Source: Bacteroidota bacterium (GTDB lineage: Bacteria > Bacteroidota > Bacteroidia > Chitinophagales > Chitinophagaceae). From it: a stretch of DNA of 64,000 nucleotides. The DNA lies in contig SXXL01000006.1 of NCBI GenBank assembly GCA_005789565.1, positions 1-64,000 of the forward strand, read 5' to 3'. The notes beneath the pieces are model-generated. The model made no database searches, was not told the DNA's origin, and saw only the letters and a program-made list of their open reading frames with translations. Positions 9,598 to 29,013 of this stretch are shown piece by piece. How positions within the stretch are numbered: position 1 is the stretch's first letter; each line of letters starts with the position of its first letter. The position numbers were made by a program, and so were the translations under genes.

Positions 9598-9628
9598 CAC
9601 TCCCATTTTATAACGAAAACCACACGAC

Positions 9629-10108
9629 ATGAAACGCATACTTTTTTCCTCCTTTTTGGTCCTGTCCTTCCTCTTTGCGCAAGCCCAGCCCCCCGCCGGG
9701 GATGCCCTGGCAGGCGATAGCTATGGCGCTAAATTCAAAGTAGAAGAAGCCGTCAGTTTGCAGGATGTAGCCAAAAAACTAAAAGGGGGTTCTGCCATTC
9801 CGGAGGAAATACAAGTCACTGCCAAGGTAACGGATGTTTGTCCCAAAAAAGGTTGCTGGCTGAAGTTGGAATTGTCCAACGGCGAAACCGCCACGGTGAA
9901 AATGAAAGATTACGGTTTCTTCCTCCCGGTTGCTGCCATCGGTAAGCAAGTGGTGATCAACGGGGCCGTGACACTGAAGACCGTCTCCGTCGCCGAGCAA
10001 AAGCACTATGCCGAGGATGCCAAAAAACCTCAGTCCGAGATCGACGCGATAAAAGAACCCAAACAAGAGATCCGGGTGTTGGCCAGCGGAATACAAATCA
10101 CCCAGTAA
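9629..10108 (+). CDS. DUF4920 exported protein
   Basis: 159 residues with a signal peptide ending FAQAQ. The domain contains VCPKKGCWLKLEL, the hallmark segment of DUF4920, with two cysteines that may bind a metal or form a disulfide, and an OB-like strand pattern (AKVTDV, VVINGAVTL). It is probably periplasmic. The function is unknown. It is followed by two heptad arrays before ileS. Confidence 0.8.
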   Translation: MKRILFSSFLVLSFLFAQAQPPAGDALAGDSYGAKFKVEEAVSLQDVAKKLKGGSAIPEEIQVTAKVTDVCPKKGCWLKLELSNGETATVKMKDYGFFLPVAAIGKQVVINGAVTLKTVSVAEQKHYAEDAKKPQSEIDAIKEPKQEIRVLASGIQITQ

Positions 10109-10110
10109 TT

Positions 10111-10226
10111 GTTTAGAGAGCAGGGTTTAGCATCTAATGTGTTTCTACCCCCAACCTTTTTTGTGCTAAACTCTAAACCCTAAACGCTCAACTCTTCATC
10201 CTTCACCCTTCATCCTTCACCCTCCC
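10111..10226. repeat. Heptad hairpin (GTTTAGG dialect) plus GAAGG-dialect array
   Basis: The left arm 10111-10131 reads GTTTAGA-GAGCAGG-GTTTAGC; the right arm 10164-10186 is its approximate reverse complement (GTTTAGG-GTTTAGA-GTTTAGC on the minus strand), with about 32 bases between. From 10193 a second array of the GGATGAA/GGGTGAA dialect, in reverse orientation (CTTCATC-CTTCACC), runs to just before the ileS ATG. Two dialects lie side by side here. Confidence 0.8.
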
Positions 10227-10228
10227 CC

Positions 10229-13200
10229 ATGTACCGCGAGTTTACCGGATTGAATCTTCCAGCCTTGGAAAAAGAGGTGTTGGAAACGTGGGGTCGGGAG
10301 AAAACTTTCGAGCAAAGCATTGCGCATCGCGCCGGGAAGCCGGCCTTTGTGTTTTATGAAGGTCCCCCCAGCGCCAACGGACTACCCGGTATCCATCACG
10401 TCATTTCCCGAACGCTCAAAGACCTGGTCTGTCGCTATCAGACCATGCGGGGACATCAGGTAAAACGCAAGGGCGGTTGGGATACGCACGGACTTCCCAT
10501 CGAACTCGGTGTCGAAAAAGAACTCGGCATCACCAAGGAAGACATCGGCGTGAAGATCTCCGTGGAGGAATACAACCGCAAATGCCGCGAGGCGGTGTTG
10601 CGGTATAAGGACAAATGGGATCAGATCACCACCCAAATGGGATACTGGGTCGATCTCCAACATCCCTACATCACCTTTGAAAATGGATATATTGAAACGC
10701 TCTGGTGGTTGCTGAGTGAACTTTACAAAAAAGGTTTGCTCTACCAGAGTGTCAGCATACAGCCTTATTCACCGGCGGCGGGTACCGGACTCAGTTCGCA
10801 CGAACTCAATCAGCCCGGAACCTATAAAGATGTCAAAGACACTTCGGTGGTGGCTATGTTCAAAGCCATTGCCACCGATCGATCGGCCTTCCTCTTCGAA
10901 CGATCGGGTGGGGCGGAATGTTTCTTTCTGGCCTGGACCACCACGCCGTGGACCTTGCCCTCCAACCTCGGTCTCACCGTAGGCGCCAACATTGATTATG
11001 TGTTGGTCAAAACGATCAATCCCTATACCCATCAAGTCATACACGTCGTTTTAGCCGAGGCCTTGCTCGGTAAACACTTCAAAGAGGAGGGAAAGGACGG
11101 CGATTTCAGTGCCTATCAGGAAAAAGATAAGCTCGTACCCTGGCAAGTACTGCACCGATTCAAAGGATCCGATATCGAAGGGTGTCGATATGAACAACTG
11201 CTCCCCTTTGAGGCCAACCGGCCCGAAAATGTGGAGGGCAATCCGTTTCGGGTGCTGACCGATTCGTTTGTGACCACCGAGGACGGAACCGGTATCGTAC
11301 ACACCGCGCCGGCTTTCGGAGCGGACGACTATAAAGTGGGCAAGCGATATGGTATTGGGATGCTGACGATGGTTGATCGCGAGGGAAAATTCGTGGACGG
11401 GCTGGGCGAATTCAGCGGTCGCTACGTCAAAAATTATAAAGATCAAAAAGACTATGTCGATGTGAACGTCGACCTCGCCGTCAAGCTGAAAAAAGAGAAC
11501 CGCGCCTTCAAGGTAGAAAAATACGAACACGCCTATCCGCATTGCTGGCGTACCGATAAACCTATTCTTTACTATCCGCTGGATGCCTGGTTCATCCGCA
11601 CCACGGCCCTGCGCGACCGGATGGTGGAACTCAACAAGACCATCCGTTGGAAGCCGGCTTCTACCGGAGAGGGACGTTTCGGGAATTGGCTGGAGAATAT
11701 GGTGGACTGGAACCTCAGCCGCAGCCGCTATTGGGGAACGCCTCTCCCGATCTGGCGCACGGAAGACGGAAGCGAAACGCTTTGCATCGGTTCGGTGATG
11801 GAGTTGAAAGAAAAAATTCGTGCGGCCGTGGAGGCGGGTGTCGAGATGCGCGGTTTAAAAAAGGGCATGAATGATCTGACCGCAGCGATCGATTCGCTGG
11901 TGGTCGACCTGCACAAGCCGTATGTGGATGAGATCGTGTTGCTGAGTCCGGGCGGACAACCCATGCACCGCGTACCCGACCTGATCGATGTGTGGTTCGA
12001 TAGTGGTGCCATGCCGTATGCACAGTGGGGACTACCCGATACCAGCTCGAATGCATATGGTCCGCTCACTCCACAAAACTTCTTTGCTTATCACCAACTC
12101 AATGGCAGCGACGGCGGATCGGCCTTCCCGGCCAGTTTCATTGCGGAAGGAGTGGATCAAACGCGTGGCTGGTTTTATACGCTGCACGCGATCGGCAGTT
12201 TGTTATTCGATTCGGTAGCGTATCAGACGGTGGTCAGCAATGGATTGGTGCTGGACAAGAACGGAAACAAGATGAGTAAGCGGCTGGGTAATGTGGTGGA
12301 TCCGTTTCAGACCATTGACAAATATGGGGCAGATGCCACCCGCTGGTATTTGGTGACCAATGCCTCTCCCTGGGATAACCTGAAATTCGATCTGGAGGGC
12401 ATTCAGGAAGTACAACGAAAATTCTTCGGTACACTTTACAATACCTATCAGTTTTTTGTCCTCTATGCCAACCTCGATGGATTTAAATATGCTGAACCCG
12501 ATATTCCGCTGGCGGAAAGACCCGAGATCGATCGGTGGATCCTTTCCTCGTTGCATACATTGGTAAAAGAGGTACAAGCGGCCATGGAGGAGTATGAGCC
12601 GACGCAGGCCGGTCGCCTCATCGAAGATTTTGTGGACGGACAATTGAGCAATTGGTATGTGCGGCTTTGCCGGCGTCGATTCTGGAAAGGTGATTATGGC
12701 ACCGATAAGATCGCGGCCTATCAGACGCTCTATGAATGTTTGGAGACGGTGGTACGGTTGATGGCGCCGATCTCTCCCTTTTTCAGCGACCTGGTTTTCC
12801 GGGAGCTGAATGCGGTGACCCATCGTCAGCCGGTCGATTCTGTACACCTGGCCGATTTCCCGGTCTCGGATCCGCACCGGATCGATTCCGGATTGGAAGA
12901 GCGCATGCAATGGGCGCAGGATGCCAGTTCGCTGGTGTTATCGCTCCGTAAGAAAGTCAAGATCAATGTGCGTCAGCCGCTGCAGAAAATGATGATCCCG
13001 GTGCTGGATCCGAACATGAAAAAACAATTGGAGCGGGTGGCCGACCTCATCAAAGCAGAGGTCAATGTGAAGGAGTTGAGCTACCTCGACCCGAACAACA
13101 CGTTCATCCGCAAAAAGATCAAGCCCAATTTCATTGCTTTGGGAAAGAAACTGGGACCGAAAATGAAGTCAGTTTCTGCGGTTCTGGCAGCGTTTTCACA

Positions 13201-13630
13201 AGAACAGATCGCCGAACTGGAACAAAAGGGTGCCCTGGTTGTAGCGTTGGATGGAGAACCTTTTTCCCTGCAGGTGGGGGAAACGGAGATCACCAGTGAG
13301 GATGTGCCGGGATGGACAGTGGCTTCCAAGGGCCGGATCACGGTGGCGCTGGACCTGAACCTCACCCCGGAACTCGTGGCGGAGGGGCAGGCAAGGGAGC
13401 TGGTGAATCGGATCCAGAAGATTCGGAAGGATAGCGGATTTGAGTTGACGGACCGGGTGCAGGTAAGCCTTTTTGCCCCCTCGGGGCTCACCGTGTCTTT
13501 CGGACGCTTTAAGGACTATATTTGCGCGGAAATTCTGGCTGACGACCTTCATTTTGAAGTTGGTCCCCAAGCCCAGGAAATTGAAATAAACGGTGAAAAT
13601 CTGACTGTTACGGTCACAAAAAAAGGCTAA
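10229..13630 (+). CDS. ileS: Isoleucyl-tRNA synthetase
   Basis: Charges tRNA-Ile with isoleucine in the cytosol. It has 1133 residues, consistent with the longer class I IleS forms common in Bacteroidota. The class I HIGH-equivalent is GLPGIHH (about residue 53), the CP1 editing domain contains TTPWTLPSN and GTGIVHTAPAFG, the second signature is NKMSKRLGN (about residue 683), and an anticodon-binding region with WYVRLCRRRFW follows. The C-terminal region is rich in lysine. The DksA-like gene starts three bases after the stop, implying one transcript. Confidence 0.97.
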   Translation: MYREFTGLNLPALEKEVLETWGREKTFEQSIAHRAGKPAFVFYEGPPSANGLPGIHHVISRTLKDLVCRYQTMRGHQVKRKGGWDTHGLPIELGVEKELGITKEDIGVKISVEEYNRKCREAVLRYKDKWDQITTQMGYWVDLQHPYITFENGYIETLWWLLSELYKKGLLYQSVSIQPYSPAAGTGLSSHELNQPGTYKDVKDTSVVAMFKAIATDRSAFLFERSGGAECFFLAWTTTPWTLPSNLGLTVGANIDYVLVKTINPYTHQVIHVVLAEALLGKHFKEEGKDGDFSAYQEKDKLVPWQVLHRFKGSDIEGCRYEQLLPFEANRPENVEGNPFRVLTDSFVTTEDGTGIVHTAPAFGADDYKVGKRYGIGMLTMVDREGKFVDGLGEFSGRYVKNYKDQKDYVDVNVDLAVKLKKENRAFKVEKYEHAYPHCWRTDKPILYYPLDAWFIRTTALRDRMVELNKTIRWKPASTGEGRFGNWLENMVDWNLSRSRYWGTPLPIWRTEDGSETLCIGSVMELKEKIRAAVEAGVEMRGLKKGMNDLTAAIDSLVVDLHKPYVDEIVLLSPGGQPMHRVPDLIDVWFDSGAMPYAQWGLPDTSSNAYGPLTPQNFFAYHQLNGSDGGSAFPASFIAEGVDQTRGWFYTLHAIGSLLFDSVAYQTVVSNGLVLDKNGNKMSKRLGNVVDPFQTIDKYGADATRWYLVTNASPWDNLKFDLEGIQEVQRKFFGTLYNTYQFFVLYANLDGFKYAEPDIPLAERPEIDRWILSSLHTLVKEVQAAMEEYEPTQAGRLIEDFVDGQLSNWYVRLCRRRFWKGDYGTDKIAAYQTLYECLETVVRLMAPISPFFSDLVFRELNAVTHRQPVDSVHLADFPVSDPHRIDSGLEERMQWAQDASSLVLSLRKKVKINVRQPLQKMMIPVLDPNMKKQLERVADLIKAEVNVKELSYLDPNNTFIRKKIKPNFIALGKKLGPKMKSVSAVLAAFSQEQIAELEQKGALVVALDGEPFSLQVGETEITSEDVPGWTVASKGRITVALDLNLTPELVAEGQARELVNRIQKIRKDSGFELTDRVQVSLFAPSGLTVSFGRFKDYICAEILADDLHFEVGPQAQEIEINGENLTVTVTKKG

Positions 13631-13633
13631 TAT

Positions 13634-14611
13634 ATGGCCCTCAAGAAAAAACCCACTCCGAAGAAAACCGCCAAACCGGTAGCCAAGGCCAAGCCTGTTG
13701 CCAAAAAGACTGCACCGAAGAATGCTGCCAAACCGGCGCCTAAGGTCAAGCCTGTTGCTAAAAAGCCTGCACCGAAGAATGCTGCTAAACCGGTGGTCAA
13801 GGCCAAGCCGGTTGCAAAAAAGCCTGAACCGAAGAAAGCGGCGAAACCTTTGGCCAAGGCTAAACCGGTGGCGGTAAAACCGGCTGCCAAAGCTCCGGTC
13901 AAGCCCGTCTCCAAACCGGTGGCGGTGAAACCAGCTGTTAAAGCCTCGGCCAAGCCTGTCGCTAAACCCGTCACTAAGTCAACAGCCAAACCCGCGGCGG
14001 TGGTCGCCAAGCCGGCGCCTGCCCCTGCCAAGCCTGTTGTTCCAGCTCCGAAACCGGTAGCCAAGAAAAATGATCCGGCCAGTTTGGTGTCCATCAAACC
14101 CAAGGCTCCGGTCGTGACAAAAAAAGAACCTCCTCGTCCGGCCAAAGTGGTGCTTCCCAAGCTCACCACTCGGAGTGCCGTTAAATACGAACCTGATTTT
14201 ACGCGTTCGGTGTTGGACTCGAAGCCCAGTTTGCCGGCGGGTCCCACCATGCGCTATTCCGATTCCGACCTCGCCGAGTTCCGCGAGATCATTTCCCGCA
14301 AGTTGGATGCGGCCAAGAAAGAGTTGGCGTACTTGCAGGGATTGATCACCCGCAAGGATGAGAGCGGCGATTTTGAAGATGCCCGGTATATGACCATGGA
14401 AGATGGCAGCGTAAGCATGGAGCGTGAGCAATTGGGACAGATGGCCAGCCGCCAGATCACCTTCATCGATCACCTCGAAAAGGCCCTGATGCGCATCGAA
14501 AATAAAACCTACGGGGTATGTCGGGTCACTGGTAAACTGATCGACAAGGCCCGCCTTCGCGCCGTTCCTCATGCCACCCTCAGTATTGAGGCGAAGCAGA
14601 TGCGGAAGTAA
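13634..14611 (+). CDS. DksA/TraR-like protein with histone-H1-like Lys/Ala/Pro N-terminal tail
   Basis: 325 residues. Residues 1 to about 175 are almost only K, A, P and V, with about four copies of a 19-residue unit of the type AKPVAKAKPVAKK-APKNA, resembling bacterial histone-H1-like tails and likely to bind nucleic acid. Residues about 205-325 form a DksA/TraR coiled-coil-like region (DLAEFREIISRKLDAAKKEL) and a zinc-finger fold YGVCRVTGKLI...ATLSIEAK in which only one of the four canonical cysteines remains. The acidic DksA tip is not obvious. It probably acts on RNA polymerase or the nucleoid; both are inference. It is three bases downstream of ileS. Confidence 0.85.
   Translation: MALKKKPTPKKTAKPVAKAKPVAKKTAPKNAAKPAPKVKPVAKKPAPKNAAKPVVKAKPVAKKPEPKKAAKPLAKAKPVAVKPAAKAPVKPVSKPVAVKPAVKASAKPVAKPVTKSTAKPAAVVAKPAPAPAKPVVPAPKPVAKKNDPASLVSIKPKAPVVTKKEPPRPAKVVLPKLTTRSAVKYEPDFTRSVLDSKPSLPAGPTMRYSDSDLAEFREIISRKLDAAKKELAYLQGLITRKDESGDFEDARYMTMEDGSVSMEREQLGQMASRQITFIDHLEKALMRIENKTYGVCRVTGKLIDKARLRAVPHATLSIEAKQMRK
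13670..13900 (+). repeat. 57-base tandem coding repeat in the DksA-like gene
   Basis: About four imperfect copies of a unit encoding AKPVAKAKPVAKKxAPKNA, divergent at the third position. The repeat explains the long open shadow frame on the minus strand here. Confidence 0.7.
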
Positions 14612-14615
14612 TTTG

Positions 14616-14671
14616 GTTTAGGGTAGAGAGTAGAGTGTAGAGATCTCAACCCTCATCCCTCAACTCTAAAC
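14616..14671. repeat. Exact 4+4 heptad palindrome
   Basis: Eight contiguous 7-base units: GTTTAGG, GTAGAGA, GTAGAGT, GTAGAGA, then TCTCAAC, CCTCATC, CCTCAAC, TCTAAAC. The second four are the approximate reverse complements of the first four in mirror order, so the element is 56 bases with no spacer. It is the cleanest example of the heptad family and lies between the DksA-like gene and phoD. Confidence 0.85.
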
Positions 14672-14679
14672 AATCTCTC

Positions 14680-16017
14680 ATGAAACGAATAGTTGTCATC
14701 TTACTCCTTCTTCCCGTTGTGTTGCTGGCACAACCACGTGTCATCAGTGGTCCGATGTTGGCCGGTGTGGAATTGAGGGATGTGCGGGTGTGGACGGAGG
14801 TTTCGCCCGAGGTGAAATCCGTTTCGATCCGATACGGACAAATCGGTAAAGAGATGACGGGTCAGGCTACTTACCGTGGTGCATTGGGCAAGGATTTTAA
14901 TCCCATCACCGTTACGATAGGCGGACTCGAGCCTAATACTACCTACGATTATTCGATCTATATCAACGGAAAGAAAACCGATCGGGGCGGTTCGTTCACC
15001 ACCAAAGAGCTTTGGCAGTGGCGCAAGCCTGCGCCGGATTTTTCCTTCCTGGCAGGTTCCTGTTCCTATTTCAACGAGGCGAATTATGATCGGCCCGGTC
15101 GTTCCTACGGACAAGACTCGAGCATCTTTGAACCCATGTCAAAGGAAAAAGCTGCTTTCATGCTTTGGCTGGGTGATGCCTGGTATACGCGGGAGGTGGA
15201 TTATTATAGTGAGTGGGGACTTTGGAACCGCGCCAGCCGCGACCGTTCCTTGGGCGTTCTGCAACCACTCTGGAAAGCCATGCCGCATTACGGCATTTGG
15301 GATGATCATGACTATGGCCCCAACAACAGTGGCAAGAGCTACGAGCTCAAGGAAGTGAGCCGTCAGGTGTTCAATGCCTATTTTCCAAATAAATCGGCCG
15401 GGCAGAATGGGCAGGGCATCTATACCAAGCTCCAGCACAATGATGCTGATTTCTTTTTGGTGGATGATCGCTGGTGGAGAAGTGAGGACCGCACCCGTGA
15501 CTCGATCAATGGTCAGCCCAACCCCGACAAGCGCATGCTGGGTGCTCCGCAAATGGAGTGGTTAAAAGATGCCTTGTTGTACAGCAACGCTGTTTTCAAG
15601 TTTATCGTGGTGGGCAGTCAGGCCCTGAACGATGTATCGCCCTACGATAAATGGAACGATTTCCCTCTTGAGCGTCAAGAGCTGATGGATTTCATCCGAC
15701 AGTATAAGATCAATGGCGTGGTCTTTATCAGTGGCGACCGTCATCACAGCGAAGTCATTAAAATGACTCGTCCGGGTACTTACCCCCTTTACGACATCAC
15801 CGTTTCTCCGCTTACGTCGGGTACGCACAAGTTCGATGGTCCCGAGGCCAACAATCCTCTCCGGGTATTTGGACTGGATCAAAAGAACAATTACGGACGC
15901 TTTTCCATTACCGGTCCGAAAGGACTTCGCAAGCTCACCGTCGAATTTCTTGGCACGAAGGGAGAGAAGCTGGGAAGTTGGGAGGTCAATGAGAGCGATC
16001 TGAAAACGCCTCGCTGA
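14680..16017 (+). CDS. PhoD-like exported metallophosphatase
   Basis: 445 residues with a signal peptide ending LLAQP. An N-terminal fibronectin/purple-phosphatase-like domain (PNTTYDYSIYING, about residue 85) is followed by a metallophosphatase core with GSCSYF, WLGDAWYTRE, WDDHDYGPN and SGDRHHSE, which supply the Asp, Asn and His metal ligands of the PhoD family. It probably hydrolyses phosphomono- or diesters in the periplasm; the substrate is not determinable here. The stop codon abuts the stop codon of the convergent GNAT gene (TGATCA). Confidence 0.88.
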   Translation: MKRIVVILLLLPVVLLAQPRVISGPMLAGVELRDVRVWTEVSPEVKSVSIRYGQIGKEMTGQATYRGALGKDFNPITVTIGGLEPNTTYDYSIYINGKKTDRGGSFTTKELWQWRKPAPDFSFLAGSCSYFNEANYDRPGRSYGQDSSIFEPMSKEKAAFMLWLGDAWYTREVDYYSEWGLWNRASRDRSLGVLQPLWKAMPHYGIWDDHDYGPNNSGKSYELKEVSRQVFNAYFPNKSAGQNGQGIYTKLQHNDADFFLVDDRWWRSEDRTRDSINGQPNPDKRMLGAPQMEWLKDALLYSNAVFKFIVVGSQALNDVSPYDKWNDFPLERQELMDFIRQYKINGVVFISGDRHHSEVIKMTRPGTYPLYDITVSPLTSGTHKFDGPEANNPLRVFGLDQKNNYGRFSITGPKGLRKLTVEFLGTKGEKLGSWEVNESDLKTPR

Positions 16018-16446
16018 TCAGAGTATTTTCTCCATCACCACATGCGGCAGGGTGACTTCGGTAAATGCCGGGCTGGTGACTTGGTACCCCATTTTTTCAT
16101 AGAACCCCACGGCGTGCTCACGGGCATGCATGATCATGTTTCGGTATCCTTGATCCCGGGCGATGTTTTCCGCAAAATTCATCAGGGCCTTGCCCACGCC
16201 TTTTCGTTGGAGTTTGTCCGACACCGCCATTTGTCGAAGCCGGACCGTTTTGTCGTTTTCCCGAACCAGCATGCAGCAGCCCAGCAGGCTATCCTCTTCA
16301 AAAGCTCCGATGTGCACATGCTTCTGTTCCGTTTCCAGCTCAGCCGGTTCCAGCTGCAGGCCCAAGGGACGACGCAGGATGTCTTGCCGGAGGCGGACCA
16401 TTTCCTGGTATTCGGGGGTTCCGTGGTCGATGATCTTGAGGGCCAT
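16018..16446 (-). CDS. GNAT-family N-acetyltransferase
   Basis: 142 residues from the ATG at 16446 (MALKII), preferred over the ORF-track start at 16467. Acetyl-CoA-binding motif A is LQRKGVGKALMNFAE (R/QxxGxG/A type), and FYEKMGY near the end is the usual GNAT C-terminal motif. The pattern MVRLRQDILRRPLGL near the start matches the ElaA-like/YitI-like group. The substrate is unknown. It is convergent with phoD. Confidence 0.87.
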   Translation of the reverse strand: MALKIIDHGTPEYQEMVRLRQDILRRPLGLQLEPAELETEQKHVHIGAFEEDSLLGCCMLVRENDKTVRLRQMAVSDKLQRKGVGKALMNFAENIARDQGYRNMIMHAREHAVGFYEKMGYQVTSPAFTEVTLPHVVMEKIL

Positions 16447-16603
16447 AAAAAATAGCTGGACATTCAATATACGATTTTCCGGCGAAACGGGTCCCCGTTC
16501 AATGATCTCAGTCGGACATTAAACAATCTGAGTCATTCGTTTTCAACTATTTATCTGTTATCGGAAAAAAGGGTCCGGAGGCTGTCATTTTGATCAAAAA
16601 CTA

Positions 16604-16611
16604 TATTTTTG
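16604..16611 (+). promoter_or_regulatory. -7 box TATTTTTG of acpP
   Basis: Exact TAnnTTTG match 25 bases before the acpP ATG, in an A/T-rich stretch. It is the likely promoter of the acpP-fabF-rnc run. Confidence 0.6.
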
Positions 16612-16636
16612 CACCCAATAAACAAAACCTTAACAC

Positions 16637-16873
16637 ATGTCAGACATCGCATCTCGAGTCAAAAAGATCATCGTGGATAAACTGGGTGTAGATGAAGCCG
16701 AGGTGACCAACGAAGCCTCCTTCACCAACGATCTGGGAGCAGACTCTTTGGATACCGTAGAACTCATCATGGAGTTCGAAAAGGAGTTCAACATCTCCAT
16801 CCCCGATGAGCAGGCTGAAACCATCACTACGGTTGGACAGGCCATCACTTATTTGGAAGAGCATTCCAAATAA
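16637..16873 (+). CDS. acpP: Acyl carrier protein
   Basis: 78 residues, acidic, four-helix carrier of fatty-acyl intermediates. The phosphopantetheine serine is in [10 protein letters not shown] (S37). It is followed by fabF and rnc in the widely conserved acpP-fabF-rnc order. A hairpin with a short T-run lies between acpP and fabF and could raise ACP expression relative to the downstream genes. Confidence 0.97.
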
Positions 16874-16924
16874 TTCGACTCCGAGTCGTCAGCCGACCTT
16901 CGACGAAACGACTGATACATGATT

Positions 16925-16970
16925 AACCGCCTTCTTGATCGGACGCCCGGCTTGAGAAGGCGGTTTTCAT
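16925..16970 (+). terminator. Hairpin between acpP and fabF (possible attenuating terminator)
   Basis: AACCGCCTTCT (16925-16935) and AGAAGGCGGTT (16955-16965) are perfect complements with a 19-base loop, followed by TTCATTT. The T-tract is weak, consistent with partial termination between acpP and fabF. Confidence 0.6.
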
Positions 16971-17001
16971 TTAATCCAAATCTTCTGACTAACTTTCCCC
17001 T

Positions 17002-18258
17002 ATGGAATTGAAACGCGTAGTGGTTACCGGTATCGGTGCCCTCACTCCGATCGGTAACAACCTGGACGATTACTGGAACGCCCTATTGGCCGGTAAATCC
17101 GGTGCGGGTCCCATCACCCAATTCGATGCCAGTAAATTCCGGACCCGTTTTGCCTGCGAGATCAAAAACTTCGACCCCACCCAATTTCTAGATAAGAAAG
17201 AAGCCCGGAAGCTCGATCGTTTCACGCAACTCGCGTTAGTCGTGAGCGACCAGGCCATGGCCGATGCCGGTCTGAACAAAGACAACATCGATCCCGATCG
17301 GGTGGGCGTGGTCTTTGCCAGTGGAATTGGCGGACTCATCACCTTTCAGCATGAGGTGACCGAATTCGCCAAAGGCGATGGTACCCCACGCTTCAACCCT
17401 TTCTTCATTCCCAAGATGATCCTGGACATAGCGGCCGGGCATATTTCCATGCGGCACAATCTGCGCGGACCCAATTTTGCCGTAGTCAGTGCCTGTGCCA
17501 GTAGTACGCACGCCATCATGGATGCTTTCAACTTATTGCGGTTGGGCAAAGCGGATATCATTCTTTCCGGCGGGGCTGAATCGGTGATCAGTGAAGCCGG
17601 GGTTGGCGGGTTCAATGCGATGAAAGCGATGAGTGAACGCAACGATGATCCGCATACGGCCAGCCGTCCCTACGACAAAGACCGCGACGGATTCGTCATG
17701 GGCGAAGCCGCCGGCTGCCTGGTGCTGGAAACACTCGACAGTGCCTTGGCGCGCGGTGCCAAGATCTATTGCGAAGTAGCCGGTGCCGGTGCCACGGCCG
17801 ATGCCTATCACATCACGGCCCCGCACCCGGAAGGGTTGGGCGCCAAGAACGTGATGTTTGCCGCCTTGGCGGAGGCGGGTATGCGTCCCGACGAGATCGA
17901 TTACATTAACACCCACGGCACCTCTACGCCCATTGGTGATGGAGCCGAGGTCAAGGCCATCACCCAGGTATTTGGGGAACACGCGTATCAGCTCAACATC
18001 AGTGCCACGAAATCCATGACCGGTCACTGTTTGGGGGCTGCCGGTGTCATCGAGGCTATTGCCAGTATCCAGGCCGTGATACACGATATCATTCCGCCCA
18101 CCATCAACCACTTCACGGACGATCCTGATCTGGACCCCAAGCTGAATTTCACCTTCAATAAACCCCAGGCTCGTACCGTGCGCGCGGCCCTCAGCAATAC
18201 GTTCGGTTTTGGCGGACACAACGCGTGTGTGATCGTGAAAAAGTATGGCGGATCATAA
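17002..18258 (+). CDS. fabF: 3-oxoacyl-ACP synthase II
   Basis: Condensing enzyme of fatty-acid elongation, cytosolic, 418 residues (usual length about 412). The catalytic triad is visible: Cys165 in VSACASSTHA, His in NTHGTSTP and His in TGHCLGAAG. The C-terminal NTFGFGGHNACVIVKK glycine loop is typical. Its end overlaps the rnc start by 14 bases, implying coupled translation. Confidence 0.97.
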   Translation: MELKRVVVTGIGALTPIGNNLDDYWNALLAGKSGAGPITQFDASKFRTRFACEIKNFDPTQFLDKKEARKLDRFTQLALVVSDQAMADAGLNKDNIDPDRVGVVFASGIGGLITFQHEVTEFAKGDGTPRFNPFFIPKMILDIAAGHISMRHNLRGPNFAVVSACASSTHAIMDAFNLLRLGKADIILSGGAESVISEAGVGGFNAMKAMSERNDDPHTASRPYDKDRDGFVMGEAAGCLVLETLDSALARGAKIYCEVAGAGATADAYHITAPHPEGLGAKNVMFAALAEAGMRPDEIDYINTHGTSTPIGDGAEVKAITQVFGEHAYQLNISATKSMTGHCLGAAGVIEAIASIQAVIHDIIPPTINHFTDDPDLDPKLNFTFNKPQARTVRAALSNTFGFGGHNACVIVKKYGGS

Positions 18259-18964
18259 TTTCCTTCACCGGATATTCGGATCGGCCGAGCAACGGATCTT
18301 CCGAAAGAACTTGCGCAACTTGTTGGGATTTCGTCCCCGTAACTTCTCCGTCTACGAACTGGCGCTGACCCATCGGTCGCTCAAAGAGCCGATCGACCAA
18401 AACAATGAGCGCCTTGAATTTTTAGGGGATGCGATCTTAAGTTCCCTCGTGGCCGAGTACCTGTTCAAACGCTATCCGTACAAGGAAGAAGGATTTTTAA
18501 CGGAGATGCGCAGCAAGATGGTGAACCGACAGCAGCTGAATGATATTGCATTGCGGATGGGACTGAACAAAATCGCCATCTTCAACCGATCTGATGGGGC
18601 CCTTCGCAACAGCCAGATCTTCGGGAATACCCTCGAGGCCCTGGTGGGGGCGATCTATCTCGATCAGGGTTATACGTACACCGACAAATGGGTGCTGCGT
18701 AACCTGATCCAGCCGCATTTATCGATGGACGACCTCGAGTCGATCGACCTCAACCTGAAAAACAAATTATACGGTTGGGTGAACCGACAAGGAAAAACGC
18801 TTGAATTCGTGACCCTGCATGAAAAACTGGAGCGTGGCCGTCGGCTCTTTACCATTGCCGCCGTCATCGATGGCGAACCCATCTCCGAAGGAAAAGGGTA
18901 TAATAAGAAGGATGCTTCCCACATCGCCGCGGAAGCGGCGATACATAAACTCGGGATAGAGTAG
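18245..18964 (+). CDS. rnc: Ribonuclease III
   Basis: Double-strand-specific endoribonuclease for rRNA and mRNA processing, 239 residues. The signature NERLEFLGDAIL lies near residue 55 with the catalytic acidic residues, the second acidic set is in NTLEALVGAIYLD, and a C-terminal dsRNA-binding domain starts near residue 168 (GKGYNKKDASHIAAEAA). The start overlaps fabF by 14 bases. Its TAG stop codon is the first triplet of a heptad element (TAGTTCGGAG). Confidence 0.96.
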   Translation: MADHNFLHRIFGSAEQRIFRKNLRNLLGFRPRNFSVYELALTHRSLKEPIDQNNERLEFLGDAILSSLVAEYLFKRYPYKEEGFLTEMRSKMVNRQQLNDIALRMGLNKIAIFNRSDGALRNSQIFGNTLEALVGAIYLDQGYTYTDKWVLRNLIQPHLSMDDLESIDLNLKNKLYGWVNRQGKTLEFVTLHEKLERGRRLFTIAAVIDGEPISEGKGYNKKDASHIAAEAAIHKLGIE

Positions 18965-19046
18965 TTCGGAGTTCAGCGTTCGGAGTTCAGTGATGAGTTA
19001 TTCGTTTGAAGTCGGACTCCAAACTCCAAACTCCGAACTCCGAACT
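18962..19046. repeat. Heptad hairpin, GTTCGGA dialect, between rnc and a convergent VOC gene
   Basis: The left arm is GTTCGGA-GTTCAGC-GTTCGGA-GTTCAGT from 18965. The right arm, 19013-19046, reads on the minus strand as GTTCGGA-GTTCGGA-GTTTGGA-GTTTGGA. About 25 bases of loop separate them. The leading TAG is the rnc stop. Its position between convergent genes suits a two-way terminator. Confidence 0.8.
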
Positions 19047-19069
19047 GATTCAGCCCTTGGGCTGAATCA
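19046..19069. terminator. 11-bp perfect hairpin overlapping the VOC gene end
   Basis: TGATTCAGCCC and GGGCTGAATCA are perfect complements around TT. The sequence encodes the last residues (IQPKG, stop) of the minus-strand VOC gene and adjoins the heptad element. There is no clear T-tract, so a terminator role is tentative. Confidence 0.4.
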
Positions 19070-19442
19070 AGTCCCAGAGATTCCCATACAAATCCTCAAA
19101 CACCAGTACGTCGCCGAAGGCTTCGTGGGAGCGATCCCGAACGATCCGTATCCCGTTTTCCCTCAGCCGTCGCTCGTCGGATAGGATATCATCGGTATGC
19201 AGGAAGAGAAATACGCGTCCCCCGGTCTGATCCCCCACCCGCGTCAATTGATGTTCGTTGGCCGCTTTGGCCAGCAAAAGCCGACAACTGTTCTCCCCCG
19301 GAGATACGGCCACCCAACGCTTGGTTTCACTCATCACCGTATCCTCGAGCAACGTAAAACCTAACTTCCGTACGTAGAAGTCGATCGCCTCGTCGTAATC
19401 TCGCACCACCAAGGTGAACTGAAACAATTGATGATTCGGCAT
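19050..19442 (-). CDS. VOC/glyoxalase-superfamily protein
   Basis: 130 residues, one vicinal-oxygen-chelate domain made of two beta-alpha-beta-beta-beta modules (LFQFTLVVRDYDEAIDFYV... and VFLFLHTDD...). Candidate metal ligands are His4/Gln region residues at the first strand and the Glu in VFEDLYGNLWDL. The YGNLWDLIQP ending is typical of glyoxalase-like proteins of unassigned substrate. It could be a resistance or hydrolase-type VOC; the sequence does not say. It lies downstream of mce on the same strand, separated by an A/T-rich and heptad repeat. Confidence 0.8.
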   Translation of the reverse strand: MPNHQLFQFTLVVRDYDEAIDFYVRKLGFTLLEDTVMSETKRWVAVSPGENSCRLLLAKAANEHQLTRVGDQTGGRVFLFLHTDDILSDERRLRENGIRIVRDRSHEAFGDVLVFEDLYGNLWDLIQPKG

Positions 19443-19478
19443 AAATGAATGCGCGTTAGAATAGAACTTGGTTAAAAC

Positions 19479-19539
19479 CCAACTAATAACTAAAAACTAA
19501 TAACTATAACTCCGAACTCCGAACGCTGAACTCCGAACT
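19479..19539. repeat. Mixed array: ACTAATA-type units and GTTCGGA-dialect heptads
   Basis: Starts AACTAATAACTAAAAACTAATAACTA, then heptads of the GAACTCC/GAACGCT kind (reverse orientation of GTTCGGA). It ends at the mce stop codon. No opposite arm is evident here. Confidence 0.7.
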
Positions 19540-19936
19540 AGCAGTCTTGACACAATTCAACCAACACCCCCCCGGCCGACTTCGGGTGTATGAAACAAAC
19601 CCATTTACCATCCGCCCCGGGCTTGGGCTCCTCGTTCAGCAACTGAAATCCGGCTGCCTTCTTTTGCTCCATTTCGGCCCGGATATCGGCCACGGCAAAG
19701 GCGATGTGATGCAACCCTTCCCCCCGTTTTTCGATGAACTGGGCTATGACCCCGTCGGGGGTGGTCGATTCCAATAGCTCGATCTTGGTCTCCCCCTGCC
19801 TAAAAAAGGCGGTACGGACCTTTTCGGAGGCTACCTCTTCGGTTTTATAGCAGTTCGTCCCCAACAGCTGTTCGTAGCGGGGGATGGCCTCGGCGAGGGA
19901 CCGGACCGCAATCCCGATGTGTTCCACCTTTTCCAT
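19538..19936 (-). CDS. mce: Methylmalonyl-CoA epimerase
   Basis: 132-residue VOC protein that interconverts (R)- and (S)-methylmalonyl-CoA in propionyl-CoA metabolism. The start MEKVEHIGIAV, with metal ligand His, is typical; IELLES and GEGLHHIAFAV supply further ligands and the C-terminal GVLVELCQ supplies the last Glu. Length matches the family (about 135). A B12-binding mutase subunit is encoded 11 kb away (31287-31700), consistent with a methylmalonyl-CoA route. It is divergent from iscS. Confidence 0.92.
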   Translation of the reverse strand: MEKVEHIGIAVRSLAEAIPRYEQLLGTNCYKTEEVASEKVRTAFFRQGETKIELLESTTPDGVIAQFIEKRGEGLHHIAFAVADIRAEMEQKKAAGFQLLNEEPKPGADGKWVCFIHPKSAGGVLVELCQDC

Positions 19937-20023
19937 GGCAGTCAGCAGATTAAGAAGTGCTTACGCGTAAAGAAATTTCTCATTTCCCCTCGAAATTACC
20001 ATATACGGTACAACCTTTTGCGG

Positions 20024-20031
20024 TAATTTTG
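20024..20031 (+). promoter_or_regulatory. -7 box TAATTTTG of iscS
   Basis: Exact TAnnTTTG match 29 bases before the iscS ATG, in the mce-iscS divergent region. Confidence 0.6.
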
Positions 20032-20060
20032 CGTTCTTCTATCGAACGATAAATCATCTT

Positions 20061-21278
20061 ATGCTGAACCTTCCCGTTTACCTGGATCACAATGCCACCA
20101 CCCCCTGCGACCCGCGCGTGGTAGAGGCCATGATCCCCTTTTTCACCCAAAACTTCGGCAATGCCGCCAGCCGTAACCATCCCTTCGGATGGCAAGCCGA
20201 GGAGGGGGTTGAACAGGCCCGCGAACAAGTCGCCAAACTGATCGGGGCCGATCCCAAAGAGATCATCTTTACCTCCGGCGCCACGGAGGGCGACAACCTC
20301 GGCATCAAGGGGGTTTTCGATATGTACGCTTCCAAAGGCAATCACATCATCACTTGTAACATCGAACACAAAGCCGTACTCGATACGTGCAAACACATCG
20401 AACGCGAAGGCGGGGAGGTGACCTATCTCGACGTGAAGCCGAACGGACTGATCGACCTGCAGGAACTGGAGGCGGCCATCAAGCCCACCACCATTCTGAT
20501 CGCCATCATGTACGCCAATAACGAGATCGGCACCATCATGCCGGTGCGCGAGATCAGCGCTATCGCCCGCAAACACGGCGTGCTGTTCTTCACTGACGGC
20601 GTACAAGCCGTCGGAAAAATTGCGGTCGACGTGAACAAAGACGGTATCGATCTGATGGCCTTCACGGCCCATAAAATGTATGGTCCCAAAGGTGTGGGCG
20701 CCCTCTACGTCCGACGCAAAAATCCCCGCGTCAAAGTCACCGCCCAGATCGACGGCGGCGGACACGAGCGCGGCATGCGCAGCGGCACCCTCAATGTGCC
20801 CGGCATCGTTGGTTTCGGCAAAGCCTGCGAGATCTGCATGCAAGAAATGGAATCCGATACCGCCCGGATCATCAAACTGCGCGATAAACTGGAAAACGCC
20901 CTTTTACAAGTCGATGAATCTTACCTGAACGGCGACAAGGAACAACGCCTGCCCCACGTCACCAATATCTCCTTCAAATACGTAGAGGGAGAGGGACTCC
21001 TGATGGGGTTCAATAAGAACATCGCCCTCTCCTCCGGCTCCGCCTGTACCTCCGCCTCCCTGGAGCCCTCCTATGTGCTCAAGGCGCTGGGACTCGGCGA
21101 TGACCTCGCGCACAGTTCCCTTCGCTTCGGCCTCGGGCGCTACACCACCGAAGAACAGATCGATTTTACCGTCGAACAAGTGACCGGCACGGTCAATAAA
21201 CTCCGGGAGATGAGCCCGCTTTGGGAAATGTTCAAAGAAGGCATCGACCTGAACACCGTTCAGTGGGCCCACCATTGA
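20061..21278 (+). CDS. iscS: Cysteine desulfurase IscS
   Basis: PLP enzyme that releases sulfur from cysteine for Fe-S cluster assembly, 405 residues (E. coli IscS 404). The PLP lysine is K205 in TAHKMYGPKG; the active cysteine is C329 in SSGSACTSASLEPSYVL, with the long loop typical of group I IscS rather than SufS. The N-terminus YLDHNATTP and SGATEGDN are family signatures. It is followed by iscU (29-base gap) and iscA. No iscR precedes it. Confidence 0.97.
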   Translation: MLNLPVYLDHNATTPCDPRVVEAMIPFFTQNFGNAASRNHPFGWQAEEGVEQAREQVAKLIGADPKEIIFTSGATEGDNLGIKGVFDMYASKGNHIITCNIEHKAVLDTCKHIEREGGEVTYLDVKPNGLIDLQELEAAIKPTTILIAIMYANNEIGTIMPVREISAIARKHGVLFFTDGVQAVGKIAVDVNKDGIDLMAFTAHKMYGPKGVGALYVRRKNPRVKVTAQIDGGGHERGMRSGTLNVPGIVGFGKACEICMQEMESDTARIIKLRDKLENALLQVDESYLNGDKEQRLPHVTNISFKYVEGEGLLMGFNKNIALSSGSACTSASLEPSYVLKALGLGDDLAHSSLRFGLGRYTTEEQIDFTVEQVTGTVNKLREMSPLWEMFKEGIDLNTVQWAHH

Positions 21279-21307
21279 TTTTTTAAAAAAAAGTAACTTT
21301 ACTCATT

Positions 21308-21727
21308 ATGGCATACAGCGAAAAAGTAATCGACCACTACCAGAACCCCAAAAACGTGGGTACGTTGGATAAGGCAAAAAATAACGTGGGAACCGGTTTG
21401 GTCGGTGCCCCCGAATGCGGCGACGTCATGCGCCTCCAAATCGAAGTGGATGAAGCCACCGGCATCATCAAAGACGCTAAGTTCAAAACCTTCGGTTGCG
21501 GATCGGCCATCGCCTCCTCCTCCCTCGCCACCGAGTGGCTGAAAGGAAAATCAGTCGATGAAGCCGTGAAGATCGATAACATGACCATCGTGGAGGAACT
21601 CAACCTGCCGCCCGTCAAGATCCACTGCTCCGTGCTGGCCGAAGATGCCATCAAGGCCGCGATCAACGACTACCGGAAGAAGAATGGATTGGAGGAACTG
21701 CAGTTTGATGAGTCCGTAGTCCATTAG
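21308..21727 (+). CDS. iscU: Fe-S cluster scaffold IscU
   Basis: 139-residue scaffold on which IscS-derived sulfur and iron are assembled. The three cluster cysteines are present: APECGD, FGCGSAIASSS and IHCSVLAEDA, with the LPPVK motif (LNLPPVKIHC) recognised by HscA-type chaperones. Length is slightly over E. coli IscU (128) with a C-terminal extension GLEELQFDESVVH. The stop TAG is followed at once by a 9-base repeat array before iscA. Confidence 0.97.
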   Translation: MAYSEKVIDHYQNPKNVGTLDKAKNNVGTGLVGAPECGDVMRLQIEVDEATGIIKDAKFKTFGCGSAIASSSLATEWLKGKSVDEAVKIDNMTIVEELNLPPVKIHCSVLAEDAIKAAINDYRKKNGLEELQFDESVVH

Positions 21728-21738
21728 GCCTACGGCCA

Positions 21739-21777
21739 GTTTGAACAGTTTGAATAGTTTGAAAGTTTTTGAAGTTG
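21739..21777 (+). repeat. 9-base TTTGAANAG array between iscU and iscA
   Basis: Consecutive units AGTTTGAAC-AGTTTGAAT-AGTTTGAAA-GTTTTTGAAG. The same unit occurs inside gltX (minus strand) and near lspA (reverse complement). It is only a few bases from the iscA start. Confidence 0.7.
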
Positions 21778-21779
21778 TT

Positions 21780-22151
21780 ATGAGTGATACGTTAGCGATA
21801 GAGACGAAGCCACAGAATGCCATTTTCGTGAGTGAAAAGGCAGCGGAGAAGGTGCGTCAGTTGATGCAGGAGGCGGGCGTGGCCGATGATCCTTCCTATT
21901 TTCTACGCGTAGGCGTGGTGGGAGGGGGTTGCTCCGGACTCAGCTATAAGATGGATTTTGACAACGAGGTTGGTGCGACCGACCAAACATTCGAAGACAA
22001 CGGCGTCAAGATCGTTACCGACCTCAAGAGCTTTCTGTACCTGGTGAACACCGTTCTGGAGTTCTCCGACGGATTGAACGGGAAAGGCTTTCATTTCGCC
22101 AATCCCAATGCCAGCCGCACCTGTGGTTGTGGCGAAAGCTTTTCCGTGTAA
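21780..22151 (+). CDS. iscA: A-type Fe-S carrier IscA/ErpA
   Basis: 123 residues from the ATG at 21780 (MSDTLAIE); the ORF-track start at 21741 would translate the upstream repeat. The three conserved cysteines are in GGGCSGLSY and the C-terminal TCGCGESF. It transfers clusters to apo-proteins in the cytosol. The N-terminal lead of about 14 residues before FVSEKAAEKV is longer than E. coli IscA. It completes iscS-iscU-iscA; hscA/hscB/fdx are not in this window. Confidence 0.95.
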   Translation: MSDTLAIETKPQNAIFVSEKAAEKVRQLMQEAGVADDPSYFLRVGVVGGGCSGLSYKMDFDNEVGATDQTFEDNGVKIVTDLKSFLYLVNTVLEFSDGLNGKGFHFANPNASRTCGCGESFSV

Positions 22152-22207
22152 TTTTACCGAAACCCCCGGTCGCAATTTTCATCCCGCCCGGGACGTTATC
22201 CTCCTGC

Positions 22208-22930
22208 ATGTGGCCGGTCTGTAAAAAAGAACTCCGACAATTTTTTTCCGGTCTTACCGGCTACCTCGCCATCGCGGTGTTTTTGGTGGTGAACGGACTG
22301 GCCCTCTTTGTCTTCAACGACAACCTCTTCGATTACGGCTATGCCACCCTCGATCCTTTCTTTGCCCTTGCCCCCTGGATCCTGTTATTCCTGATCCCCG
22401 CCATCACCATGCGCAGTTTTGCCGATGAATTTCGCACCGGCACTTATGAGATCTTGCAGGCACAACCCCTCTCTACCTTTCGAATCCTGTTCGGAAAATA
22501 CCTGGCTGCCCTGCTGGTTGTTCTGCTGGCGTTGATCCCCACCTTCCTGTACGCACTTACGATCAATCAACTTGCCGCCGGTCAGGGACTGGATGCCGGT
22601 GCCACCCTCGGCGCCTATTTCGGATTGATCCTGCTGGCCGGCGTATTCGCCACCATCGGTCTCTATTGCAGCAGCCTCACCGCCAACGCGGTCGTGGCCT
22701 TTCTGCTCGCCGCGATCGGATGCGGGCTTATTCATTACGGCGCACAAGCCATCAGCCAACTACCGGCCTTTTCCGGAACCTGGGATTATTTCATCGACAG
22801 GGCCGGGATCGAATTTCATTACCGAAGCATTCGTCGCGGACTCCTCGATAGTCGCGATTTGATCTATTTTATCTCCATCATCTCTGCTTTTCTGTTACTC
22901 ACCCTCCGAAACCTGCAACGCCGCCGATGA
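22208..22930 (+). CDS. gldF: Gliding-motility-associated ABC transporter permease GldF
   Basis: 240 residues from the ATG at 22208, the start giving MWPVCKKELRQFF, the normal N-terminus of this family. There are about six membrane helices. FADEFRTGTYEILQAQPLS is the ABC-2 permease coupling segment. It pairs with GldG, whose start overlaps its stop (ATGA). GldA, the ATPase partner, is not nearby. In flavobacteria GldA/F/G are linked to gliding, although homologues occur in non-gliding Bacteroidota. Confidence 0.92.
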   Translation: MWPVCKKELRQFFSGLTGYLAIAVFLVVNGLALFVFNDNLFDYGYATLDPFFALAPWILLFLIPAITMRSFADEFRTGTYEILQAQPLSTFRILFGKYLAALLVVLLALIPTFLYALTINQLAAGQGLDAGATLGAYFGLILLAGVFATIGLYCSSLTANAVVAFLLAAIGCGLIHYGAQAISQLPAFSGTWDYFIDRAGIEFHYRSIRRGLLDSRDLIYFISIISAFLLLTLRNLQRRR

Positions 22931-24660
22931 TCGATCGCCTGCACCATATTTTCTTGCGACGGGGAGGCGGTTGGATCCTGTTGCCAGTCCTGTTCCTGGT
23001 CAACGCCTTGGCAACGATCGGTTCCTTTCAAATCGACCTCACGGCAGATAAACGCTACACGCTGAGTCCCGCTACCCAACAGCTGGTTCGTTCCCTCACG
23101 GCACCCATTACCATCGACGTCTTTTTGGAAGGGGAATTTCCCGCCGGCTTTCGCAAACTGGCCAATAGCACCCGCGAATTTCTGGAGTTGCTGAAAAAAG
23201 AGAATGGACCGAACATTCAATTTCGTTTTGTCTCCCCCGAAGCATTACAAGAGAATAACCTGCCCTTCTCGGATACGCTCACCAAACTGGGCGCCCTGCC
23301 CATCAACCTGACCGTGCAACAGAAGGCCGGGCAATCCACCAACCTGCTCTATCCCTTTGCTTGGATAAGGAGCGGGGAACGCCAAGAACTGGTGCCCCTG
23401 TTCGGTGGATCCAAAGGACGGATCAGTCAAGAAGAGATCAACGGAGCCGAAACCTTACTCGAGTATCAATTTGCCAGCACCATTCGCAAGTTGAGTACGA
23501 CCGGACGGGCCACCATCGCCTATGAAATGGGACATGGGCAGCCCACCGACCTCCGCGGATACGATCTTGAAAACACACTAAAGGCCGATTATCGCTTTGG
23601 CTTGTTGAATATCCAAGATTCCCTGACGATCCCCGAAGGGATCGATGTGCTGATGATCGTCAAACCCACACAGGCTTTCTCGGAAGACGATAAGATCAAA
23701 CTCGATCAGTTCGTGATGCGCGGCGGAAAACTCCTGCTCTTCCTCGATAATCTCATCGCGGAGCTGGATAGCCTGATGGCAAAACCAACCGGTGAAACCA
23801 TCGCGTATGACCGTAACCTCGAACTCACCGATCTTTTGTTCCGTTATGGATGCCGGATCAATTCTGATCTGGTAATGGATCTTCAATCCGAGTTCATTCC
23901 ACTGGTAGTTGGCGGCTCACCCGAAAACCCACAGTTGGAGTATCTGCGGTGGAATTATTTTCCGCTGCTGACCGGAGCCGGTCCCTTTGCCAAAAGTCTG
24001 GGCTACGTCTCCACCCGTTTCGCCAACTCCATCGACACCATAGAGGTGGCGGGGATCACCAAAACCCCGATTCTGGTTTCTTCCAATCATTCCCGACGGC
24101 TCTCCACTCCGGTCATGATTCGCTTCGATGAGAATCGCAACGCGCCGGAGGATGAGCAATTCCGGTTGTCCAATCTGCCCATCGGCTATTTGCTCGAGGG
24201 AAATTTCACTTCCCTGTTCGCCAACCGCATCAGCCAGACCTGGCGCGACAGCCTGCAGCGGGCCGGTAAACCCTTTCAACCCCGATCCACCACCAACCGC
24301 ATGATCGTAGTGTCGGATGGTGATGTGGTGCTAAATGAAGTCTCATCCCGCACGGGCCCACTTCCGATGGGATGGAATCGATATAATTATTTGGCCTACC
24401 AGGAGGGGCAACCCGGGGGACAATACTTCATCCCCGCCGCCAACCGCGATTTCCTTAAACTCTCCATCGAACAATTGATCGGCGACCCGGCCATCATGGC
24501 CACGCGCAACAAAGAGATCTTCCTCCGTTTACTGGACGCCCAAAAGATCGAAGCCACTCGCGCCCAATGGCAATTGATCAATCTAGCACTACCGCTGATT
24601 GTACTGGTGTTATTCGGCGCAGGGTTGTATGGGTGGAGGCGGAGACGGTATGCGGTATAG
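22927..24660 (+). CDS. gldG: Gliding-motility-associated ABC transporter substrate-binding protein GldG
   Basis: 577 residues, overlapping gldF by four bases. It has an N-terminal membrane segment (residues about 16-36), then a large periplasmic ABC_transp_aux domain with FQIDLTADKRYTLSPAT, the family opening motif, and a C-terminal membrane anchor (LINLALPLIVLVLFGAGLYG) ending RRRRYAV. Its TAG stop is the first triplet of a heptad palindrome (TAGTCCGC). Confidence 0.93.
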   Translation: MIDRLHHIFLRRGGGWILLPVLFLVNALATIGSFQIDLTADKRYTLSPATQQLVRSLTAPITIDVFLEGEFPAGFRKLANSTREFLELLKKENGPNIQFRFVSPEALQENNLPFSDTLTKLGALPINLTVQQKAGQSTNLLYPFAWIRSGERQELVPLFGGSKGRISQEEINGAETLLEYQFASTIRKLSTTGRATIAYEMGHGQPTDLRGYDLENTLKADYRFGLLNIQDSLTIPEGIDVLMIVKPTQAFSEDDKIKLDQFVMRGGKLLLFLDNLIAELDSLMAKPTGETIAYDRNLELTDLLFRYGCRINSDLVMDLQSEFIPLVVGGSPENPQLEYLRWNYFPLLTGAGPFAKSLGYVSTRFANSIDTIEVAGITKTPILVSSNHSRRLSTPVMIRFDENRNAPEDEQFRLSNLPIGYLLEGNFTSLFANRISQTWRDSLQRAGKPFQPRSTTNRMIVVSDGDVVLNEVSSRTGPLPMGWNRYNYLAYQEGQPGGQYFIPAANRDFLKLSIEQLIGDPAIMATRNKEIFLRLLDAQKIEATRAQWQLINLALPLIVLVLFGAGLYGWRRRRYAV

Positions 24661-24757
24661 TCCGCTGTCCTCCGTCGGCCGTCCGCTGTTAGTTTAGTGA
24701 TGAACGCGCTCTATTAACAATAAACTCAAAACAGCGGTCGGCGGACCGCGGACTACT
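24658..24757. repeat. Heptad hairpin, GTCCGCT dialect, between gldG and murF-alr
   Basis: The left arm from TAGTCCGC at 24658 runs GTCCGCT-GTCCTCC-GTCGGCC-GTCCGCT-GTTAGTT. The right arm ends GCGGACTA at 24755 and reads on the minus strand GTCCGCG-GTCCGCC-GACCGCT-GTTTTGA. Both outer TAG triplets are stop codons: gldG on plus, murF-alr on minus. It would form a long stem-loop in either transcript. Confidence 0.85.
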
Positions 24758-27119: not shown

Positions 27120-27129
27120 GGAACTATCA

Positions 27130-27181
27130 GTTCAGAGTTCAGAGTTCGGAGTTCGGAGTTCAGAGTTCGGAGTTCAGAGTT
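27130..27181. repeat. Seven-unit direct heptad array, GTTCAGA/GTTCGGA
   Basis: GTTCAGA and GTTCGGA alternate for seven exact 7-base units plus GTT, with no mismatch outside the A/G switch. It is a one-arm array with no inverted partner, located between the murF-alr start and the terC stop. Confidence 0.85.
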
Positions 27182-27205
27182 AGTTTTTGGGCGGTTGTCT
27201 ACTGT

Positions 27206-28159: not shown

Positions 28160-28163
28160 GCCG

Positions 28164-28171
28164 TAAAGGTA
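28164..28171 (-). promoter_or_regulatory. -7-like box TACCTTTA of terC
   Basis: One mismatch from TAnnTTTG at the last base; spacing to the ATG is four bases, as in other genes here. Confidence 0.4.
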
Positions 28172-28178
28172 ATTTAAT

Positions 28179-28225: not shown

Positions 28226-28228
28226 TAA

Positions 28229-28939: not shown

Positions 28940-28944
28940 CACTT

Positions 28945-28995: not shown

Positions 28996-29013
28996 GCCGG
29001 ATGCAATATCATC

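Follow-up and report, generated by a model that had tools for sequence, protein, structure and literature searches.

Palindromic arrays of seven-nucleotide units between genes of a Chitinophagaceae bacterium as possible gene-less forms of an IVS-like element

Results

Heptad arrays at the locus

The window, a 64,000-nt stretch of contig C71 of the 1.875-Mb, 86-contig genome of a freshwater bacterium (G000), is syntenic with two sister genomes, G001 and G003; the closest named relatives are Chitinophagaceae MAGs, and the isoleucyl-tRNA-synthetase-like protein is 91-93% identical. The element at 14616-14671 reads, as originally predicted, as eight heptads, four forward (GTTTAGG, GTAGAGA, GTAGAGT, GTAGAGA) and four mirrored (TCTCAAC, CCTCATC, CCTCAAC, TCTAAAC). 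The DksA/TraR-like gene upstream of it carries 57-bp and 51-bp tandem repeats in its lysine/alanine-rich part (13658-13968). The same architecture had been predicted at other sites, and all eleven named ranges carry period-7 arrays (Table 1).

Table 1. Heptad arrays of the window and the genes beside them
Position	Array	Strand	Setting	Fold z
1828-1890	one-arm RTGAAGG array	+	divergent gap	no folding alone
10111-10226	GTTTAGR palindrome and one-sided TTCAYCC array		upstream of isoleucyl-tRNA-synthetase-like gene (10229)	-3.7
14616-14671	reported element, 4+4 heptads, GTTTAGG/GTAGAGA dialect		between DksA/TraR-like gene (end 14611) and PhoD-like phosphatase gene (start 14680)	
18962-19046	AGTTCGG/AGTTCAG palindrome		convergent RNase III-like and glyoxalase-like genes; TAG stop codon within first bases	-4.4
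19479-19539	one-arm AACTCCG/AACTAAT array	-	ends at stop codon of glyoxalase-like gene 19538-19936	no folding alone
24658-24757	GTCCGCT-type palindrome		convergent genes; begins at TAG stop codon	-4.9
27129-27181	one-arm AGTTCAG/AGTTCGG array	+	9-mer array in same G001 gap	-1.6
28179-28225	GTCCGCG/GTCAGCG palindrome		between TerC-like and signal-peptidase-II-like genes	-6.0
30422-30510	RTGAARG palindrome, loop TTGGTAGGTCAAAAGTT			-7.9
58643-58691	GTCCGCC/GTCGGCG palindrome		divergent gap	-1.9 (weak)
63002-63053	GTCCGCC/GTCGGCG palindrome			-5.5

The arrays form a family of constant unit length and variable unit sequence, as had been claimed, but the dialects are not unrelated: their 5′ arms are rich in G and poor in C, and GT or AGT occurs in many units. 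Conserved folding, also claimed, is found at most two-arm sites but is not general. Specifically, six of the seven two-arm sites besides 14616-14671 have fold z-scores of -3.7 to -7.9, the exception being 58640-58695 (-1.9), and the region of the reported element itself (14612-14679) folds weakly (z = -1.6, with 11 of 200 shuffles folding equally well), its arms being imperfectly complementary. The loop of the palindrome at 30422-30510 recurs at position 13472 of contig C86 of G000 and at L098:6768; its presence at three loci fits copying of whole elements.

In the gaps 1816-1937, 28160-28228, 30409-30506 and 62953-63089, the arrays end just upstream of motifs resembling TAnnTTTG, the -7 promoter element of Bacteroidota, and therefore seem to occupy the space from a gene to the next promoter. 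Arrays also occur within coding sequence. In particular, 9-mer and heptad arrays lie at 32102-32174 inside gene 31713-33263 (minus strand), the G001 orthologue of which has 9-mers and no heptads, and AGTTCGG/CGTTCAG heptads, apparently translated, lie within a frame on contig C84 of G000 that is leucyl-tRNA-synthetase-like by its motif only (L087:10638-10667).

Period 7 is enriched and its positions persist between sister species

Arrays were counted in stretches totalling 510 kb of G000, for which a simple gene predictor trained on the same 510 kb gave 262 intergenic gaps of at least 20 bp; an array was called at a score of at least 12, with dinucleotide shuffles as the null. The gaps contain 38 period-7 arrays versus 0.0 in the shuffles, which bears out the predicted excess over shuffled intergenic sequence. 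Periods 3-6 gave no arrays, period 8 gave five and period 9 four, and no period from 3 to 13 except 7 rose above five; period 7 is the sole strongly enriched tandem period between genes of the sample. Across 15-kb loci from 80 relatives in the Chitinophagaceae, period 7 is likewise dominant, with 62 arrays, followed by periods 12 and 18, both multiples of three. Two-arm inverted repeats are found at 22 of 51 sample arrays, a count that is only approximate because the lenient score used for it has a high null.

Orthologous gaps of G001 and G003, a comparison proposed with the original prediction, contain heptad palindromes at several of the same places, built from other units. In particular, gap 1816-1937 holds RTGAAGG units in G000, GTTTAGR units in G001, where they include a two-arm GTTTAGG palindrome, and units of the GTTTAG/GTTGAG types in G003; in gap 14612-14679 all three genomes have different units; and gaps 24661-24752 and 28160-28228 hold GTCCGC units in G000 and GTCCAAT units in G001. 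Position and architecture therefore persist while the unit sequence turns over. The gap of 10111-10226 has a GTTTAGG palindrome at the same place in G001, and that of 30422-30510 has a palindrome in G003; other, intervening gaps align well and carry no arrays.

IVP genes lie between inverted heptad arms

On contig C86 of G000, two inverted arrays about 400 bp apart flank a gene for a 23S-rRNA intervening-sequence protein (IVP/S23p), the product of which matches PF05635 with E = 3.3e-35 and has a solved homologue, 2gsc. To our knowledge, PF05635 has no known catalytic activity and is not a known recombinase. Both IVP genes of each of G000, G001 and G003 are enclosed by inverted periodic arms (period 7 to 10), as are most of 26 further IVP copies in nine relatives. 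This long form measures about 0.6 kb and consists of a G-rich, C-poor 5′ arm of 7-nt units, the IVP gene and an inverted arm, often directly at a stop codon. The window itself has ORF-less forms only.

Inverted arms around the S23p gene mark both IVP loci of G000, most of those in its relatives and many across the phylum, where IVP/S23p is present in 116 of 148 sampled Bacteroidota genomes. The best inverted flank-to-flank match has a median of 21.5 at IVP loci of relatives (n = 32) and of 18 in a draw from the phylum (n = 30), compared with 11 at 29 loci of a control family from the same genomes (glyoxalase, PF00903) and with a shuffled null of about 11; one control locus scored high, and it too has period-7 arms. 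In lag spectra the IVP arms have peaks at 7 and 14 and nowhere else, AGT is enriched 2.2-fold in these arms, and AG dinucleotides recur at 7, 14 and 21 nt. The arms of different IVP copies within one genome differ, and are therefore not simply carried as fixed ends. In the open literature searched, which omits most subscription journals, we found no earlier account of IVP genes flanked by inverted heptad arms at sites other than rRNA.

Arrays of AGTTTGAnn-type 9-mers occur in the window as well (21737-21768, 28971-28994 and 32102-32148), and G001 also has 9-mers, some of them in the same gaps. They are possibly another size class of units in the same elements, as 9-mer arms also flank two IVP genes in relatives.

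Two ideas about the arms were set aside. The arms do not look like mere neighbours of one dialect: in 10 of 30 elements the two arms match in register better than after permutation of their heptads, so that the picture is mixed and the arms are partly in register. Nor are they cassettes of stop codons in all frames; stop trinucleotides number 56 versus 36 expected in the arms of G000 and 75 versus 61 in the IVP arms of relatives, with hardly an excess elsewhere, and are a local trait only.

Short palindromes share ends, polarity and distribution with IVP elements

Four findings say that the short palindromes and the IVP elements are the same thing: shared arm sequence, polarity, co-occurrence with IVP and the argC-argD gap. 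The 20-mer GTTTAGGGTAGAGAGTAGAG of 14616-14671 has four sites genome-wide at up to two mismatches, two of which are both arms of the C86 IVP element (1-2 mismatches), and the left arm of 14616-14671 aligns with an arm of that element at 25 of 29 bases, a match established for the GTTTAGG/GTAGAGG dialect. Of 112 5′ arms, 105 are richer in G than in C (61 of 68 without IVP and 44 of 44 with it); ordinary inverted repeats in array-free gaps have no such polarity (G>C versus the reverse, 124 versus 130).

Heptad arrays follow IVP genes. Eleven IVP-free genomes of the genus have 2 arrays in 433 kb (one sequence, in two genomes), compared with 67 arrays in 710 kb of the IVP-bearing genomes G000, G001 and G003, a contrast that is suggestive and not independent evidence because these three form one clade. 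At the level of the phylum, six genomes without IVP, including G007 of this genus, have 0 arrays in 360 kb, compared with 12 arrays in 400 kb, from six of seven IVP-rich genomes.

Comparison of relatives reveals empty and filled sites. The msrB gap holds a 614-bp IVP element in G000; the genes overlap there in G001 (MsrB 94% identical), and the gap is short in eight other congeners and holds a short imperfect inverted sequence in G003. The argC-argD gap measures 0-10 nt in most congeners, contains IVP with arms in five and contains an IVP-less palindrome in one (L218), so that both gaps provide empty sites for the IVP form and argC-argD alone does so for the short form. No target-site duplication is obvious at either gap, the flanks having diverged. 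In the argC-argD gap of L223 and L233, a CACAGAA-type hairpin (GCCACAGAAACACAGAG...CTCTGTGTTTCAGTGGC), possibly of a further dialect, replaces the IVP element.

The M1-peptidase gap has an IVP element in three genomes and a canonical terminator in outgroups. The IVP proteins of G000 and G003 at this gap are 58% identical, which hardly exceeds the 57% identity to copies elsewhere, so that repeated insertion at this one gap is possible. In locus L263 (G193), the IVP gene points the other way from those of G000 and G003, an orientation that either recombination between the inverted arms or a separate insertion would produce. Overall, IVP proteins cluster by insertion site (argC-argD, nuoC-nuoD, moxR-DUF58), even across families, which fits either vertical descent with many losses or site-faithful spread. 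The gap beside the G003 IVP gene C4:110183 has no synteny in G000 or G001. No single locus has the same element both with and without IVP, and we therefore infer the derivation of the short form from the long one.

Discussion

We propose that the palindromes are miniature versions, devoid of IVP, of an IVS-like element, a reading to which we assign a probability of about 0.55. Weighing against it are the missing target-site duplication and recombinase, the failure of any locus to show one element with and without IVP, the origin of the genus-level contrast in one clade, the small number of IVP genes relative to arrays in G000 and the differing arms of IVP copies within one genome. Like the 23S rRNA intervening sequence (IVS) of Coxiella burnetii, the long elements carry an S23p/IVP gene in a loop enclosed by inverted arms; short forms that lack the ORF and sporadic presence are known there too, and the arm of the Coxiella IVS contains tandem heptamers, GACAGAT (PMC4990558). 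Unlike rRNA IVSs, the window elements and IVP loci examined all lie between protein-coding genes rather than in rRNA helices, and their arms are long 7-periodic arrays. MITEs, such as the BrickBuilt elements of Porphyromonas gingivalis in the same phylum (PMC4596501), are short elements with inverted repeats that lack the gene carried by their presumed full form. The present elements are comparable in that they have ends in common with a longer, coding-competent element of the same genome, and empty sites in relatives; they differ in that no transposase partner is known here, arm sequence varies among copies and no target-site duplication was found.

The TAACTGA repeats of Beggiatoaceae, Cyanobacteria and some Bacteroidetes (PMC4679880) and the cyanobacterial STRRs have 7-nt units and are mostly intergenic, but consist of direct repeats of one fixed heptamer; here the units vary and many loci have inverted arms, a distinction that the original prediction had drawn correctly for the STRRs. 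It also recognised no named family, and we found neither a match in Rfam nor a published account among the literature that was searched. None of the categories rRNA IVS, REP, STRR/TAACTGA array and U-tract terminator fits the elements, which behave like miniature versions of IVS-like elements.

The long form encodes, between its arms, the four-helix-bundle protein IVP/S23p, the solved Xanthomonas homologue of which is a homopentameric ring (PMC4990558). We suggest that IVP binds the arms as phased 7-nt modules, which would conserve spacing and strand polarity while the other bases drift. Slippage, together with exchange between arms and between loci, could expand, contract and homogenise the arms into genome-specific dialects. 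Short forms would originate by loss of IVP and would spread or persist with help in trans. By analogy with rRNA IVSs, for which excision by RNase III is established and in one of which, that of Coxiella, the tandem heptamers lie at the RNase III cleavage site (PMC4990558), RNase III may cut the transcribed stem, and insertion within operons would therefore be tolerated.

An alternative is that the heptad palindromes are independent hairpins into whose loops IVP genes insert, much as IVSs occupy the ends of helices in 23S rRNA. In rRNA, IVSs take the place of hairpin tetraloops (PMC4990558); moreover, arrays greatly outnumber IVP genes in G000 (about 100 arrays per Mb versus 2 IVP genes), and the IVP gaps are plausible for hairpins, one outgroup gap having a terminator hairpin where others have IVP. 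We nevertheless consider this landing-pad arrangement unlikely: the argC-argD and msrB gaps of relatives are mostly empty rather than filled with IVP-less palindromes, which suggests joint arrival of arms and IVP, genomes without IVP have hardly any heptad arrays, and arms remain similar within an IVP lineage (the nuoC-nuoD group, L197/L214). It is far less probable still that a Y1 (RAYT) transposase mobilises the palindromes as a family of the REP/BIME type. REPs are dispersed extragenic palindromes too, and several units here start with GT, but REPs are 20-40 bp long with a fixed tag tetranucleotide, GTAG or CGTC (PMC3733652); the ends of the window elements have no such common tag beside a 20-40 bp palindrome, the units vary, and no palindrome sequence is conserved.

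Replication slippage with strand switching could by itself yield self-propagating 7-mers, without any specialised element or protein. In many bacteria no long simple repeat is commoner than the heptamer, for which an origin in the polymerase footprint has been put forward (Mrazek 2007, cited in PMC4679880); the in-register arm matching described above also suits templated copying. Slippage, which the original prediction had offered as a source, is plausible for the turnover of units but leaves unexplained the link with IVP, the excess of G over C in 5′ arms, the AGT enrichment of IVP arms, the loop common to three loci, the near-absence of arrays from IVP-free relatives and the empty and filled sites, and as a full account it seems improbable to us. 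Slightly more doubtful is the proposal, also made originally, of selected RNA hairpins acting as terminators, processing sites or stabilisers of mRNA 3′ ends. Most two-arm sites fold well, and array density per kb falls from convergent to co-directional to divergent gaps (3.6, 1.9 and 1.0 in G000; 1.6, 0.8 and 0.2 in 77 relatives), a gradient that may simply mirror promoter avoidance. Yet one-arm arrays fail to fold, arrays are also found in divergent gaps, and the stems after genes are not followed by U-tracts: for the sites within 9600-29000, the sole stem flagged was an internal one of 6 bp at 24734-24749 (minus strand). Position and the missing U-tract speak against U-tract terminators. 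Selection on RNA stems finds no support either, sense-strand G-T mismatches showing no excess over A-C mismatches (59 versus 85) in co-directional gaps.

An extension of the miniature-element reading to the phylum is tentative, and we doubt it more than we believe it: Bacteroidota might possess a phylum-wide class of transposase-free mobile elements, the ends of which a small, ring-forming IVP/S23p would recognise from their 7-nt spacing and not their sequence. Such ends could drift into dialects provided that phase and strand polarity are kept, and rRNA IVSs would be a special case.

If IVP genes are the cores of small heptad-ended elements, the IVP/S23p family gains a context, and a gene previously known mainly from rRNA inserts would be that of an apparently mobile full form; rRNA intervening sequences would in turn gain a relative outside rRNA. 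A large share of the intergenic repeats in these genomes would be explained, the function of IVP would become directly testable, and the elements would be a case of apparent conservation of spacing and polarity in place of sequence.
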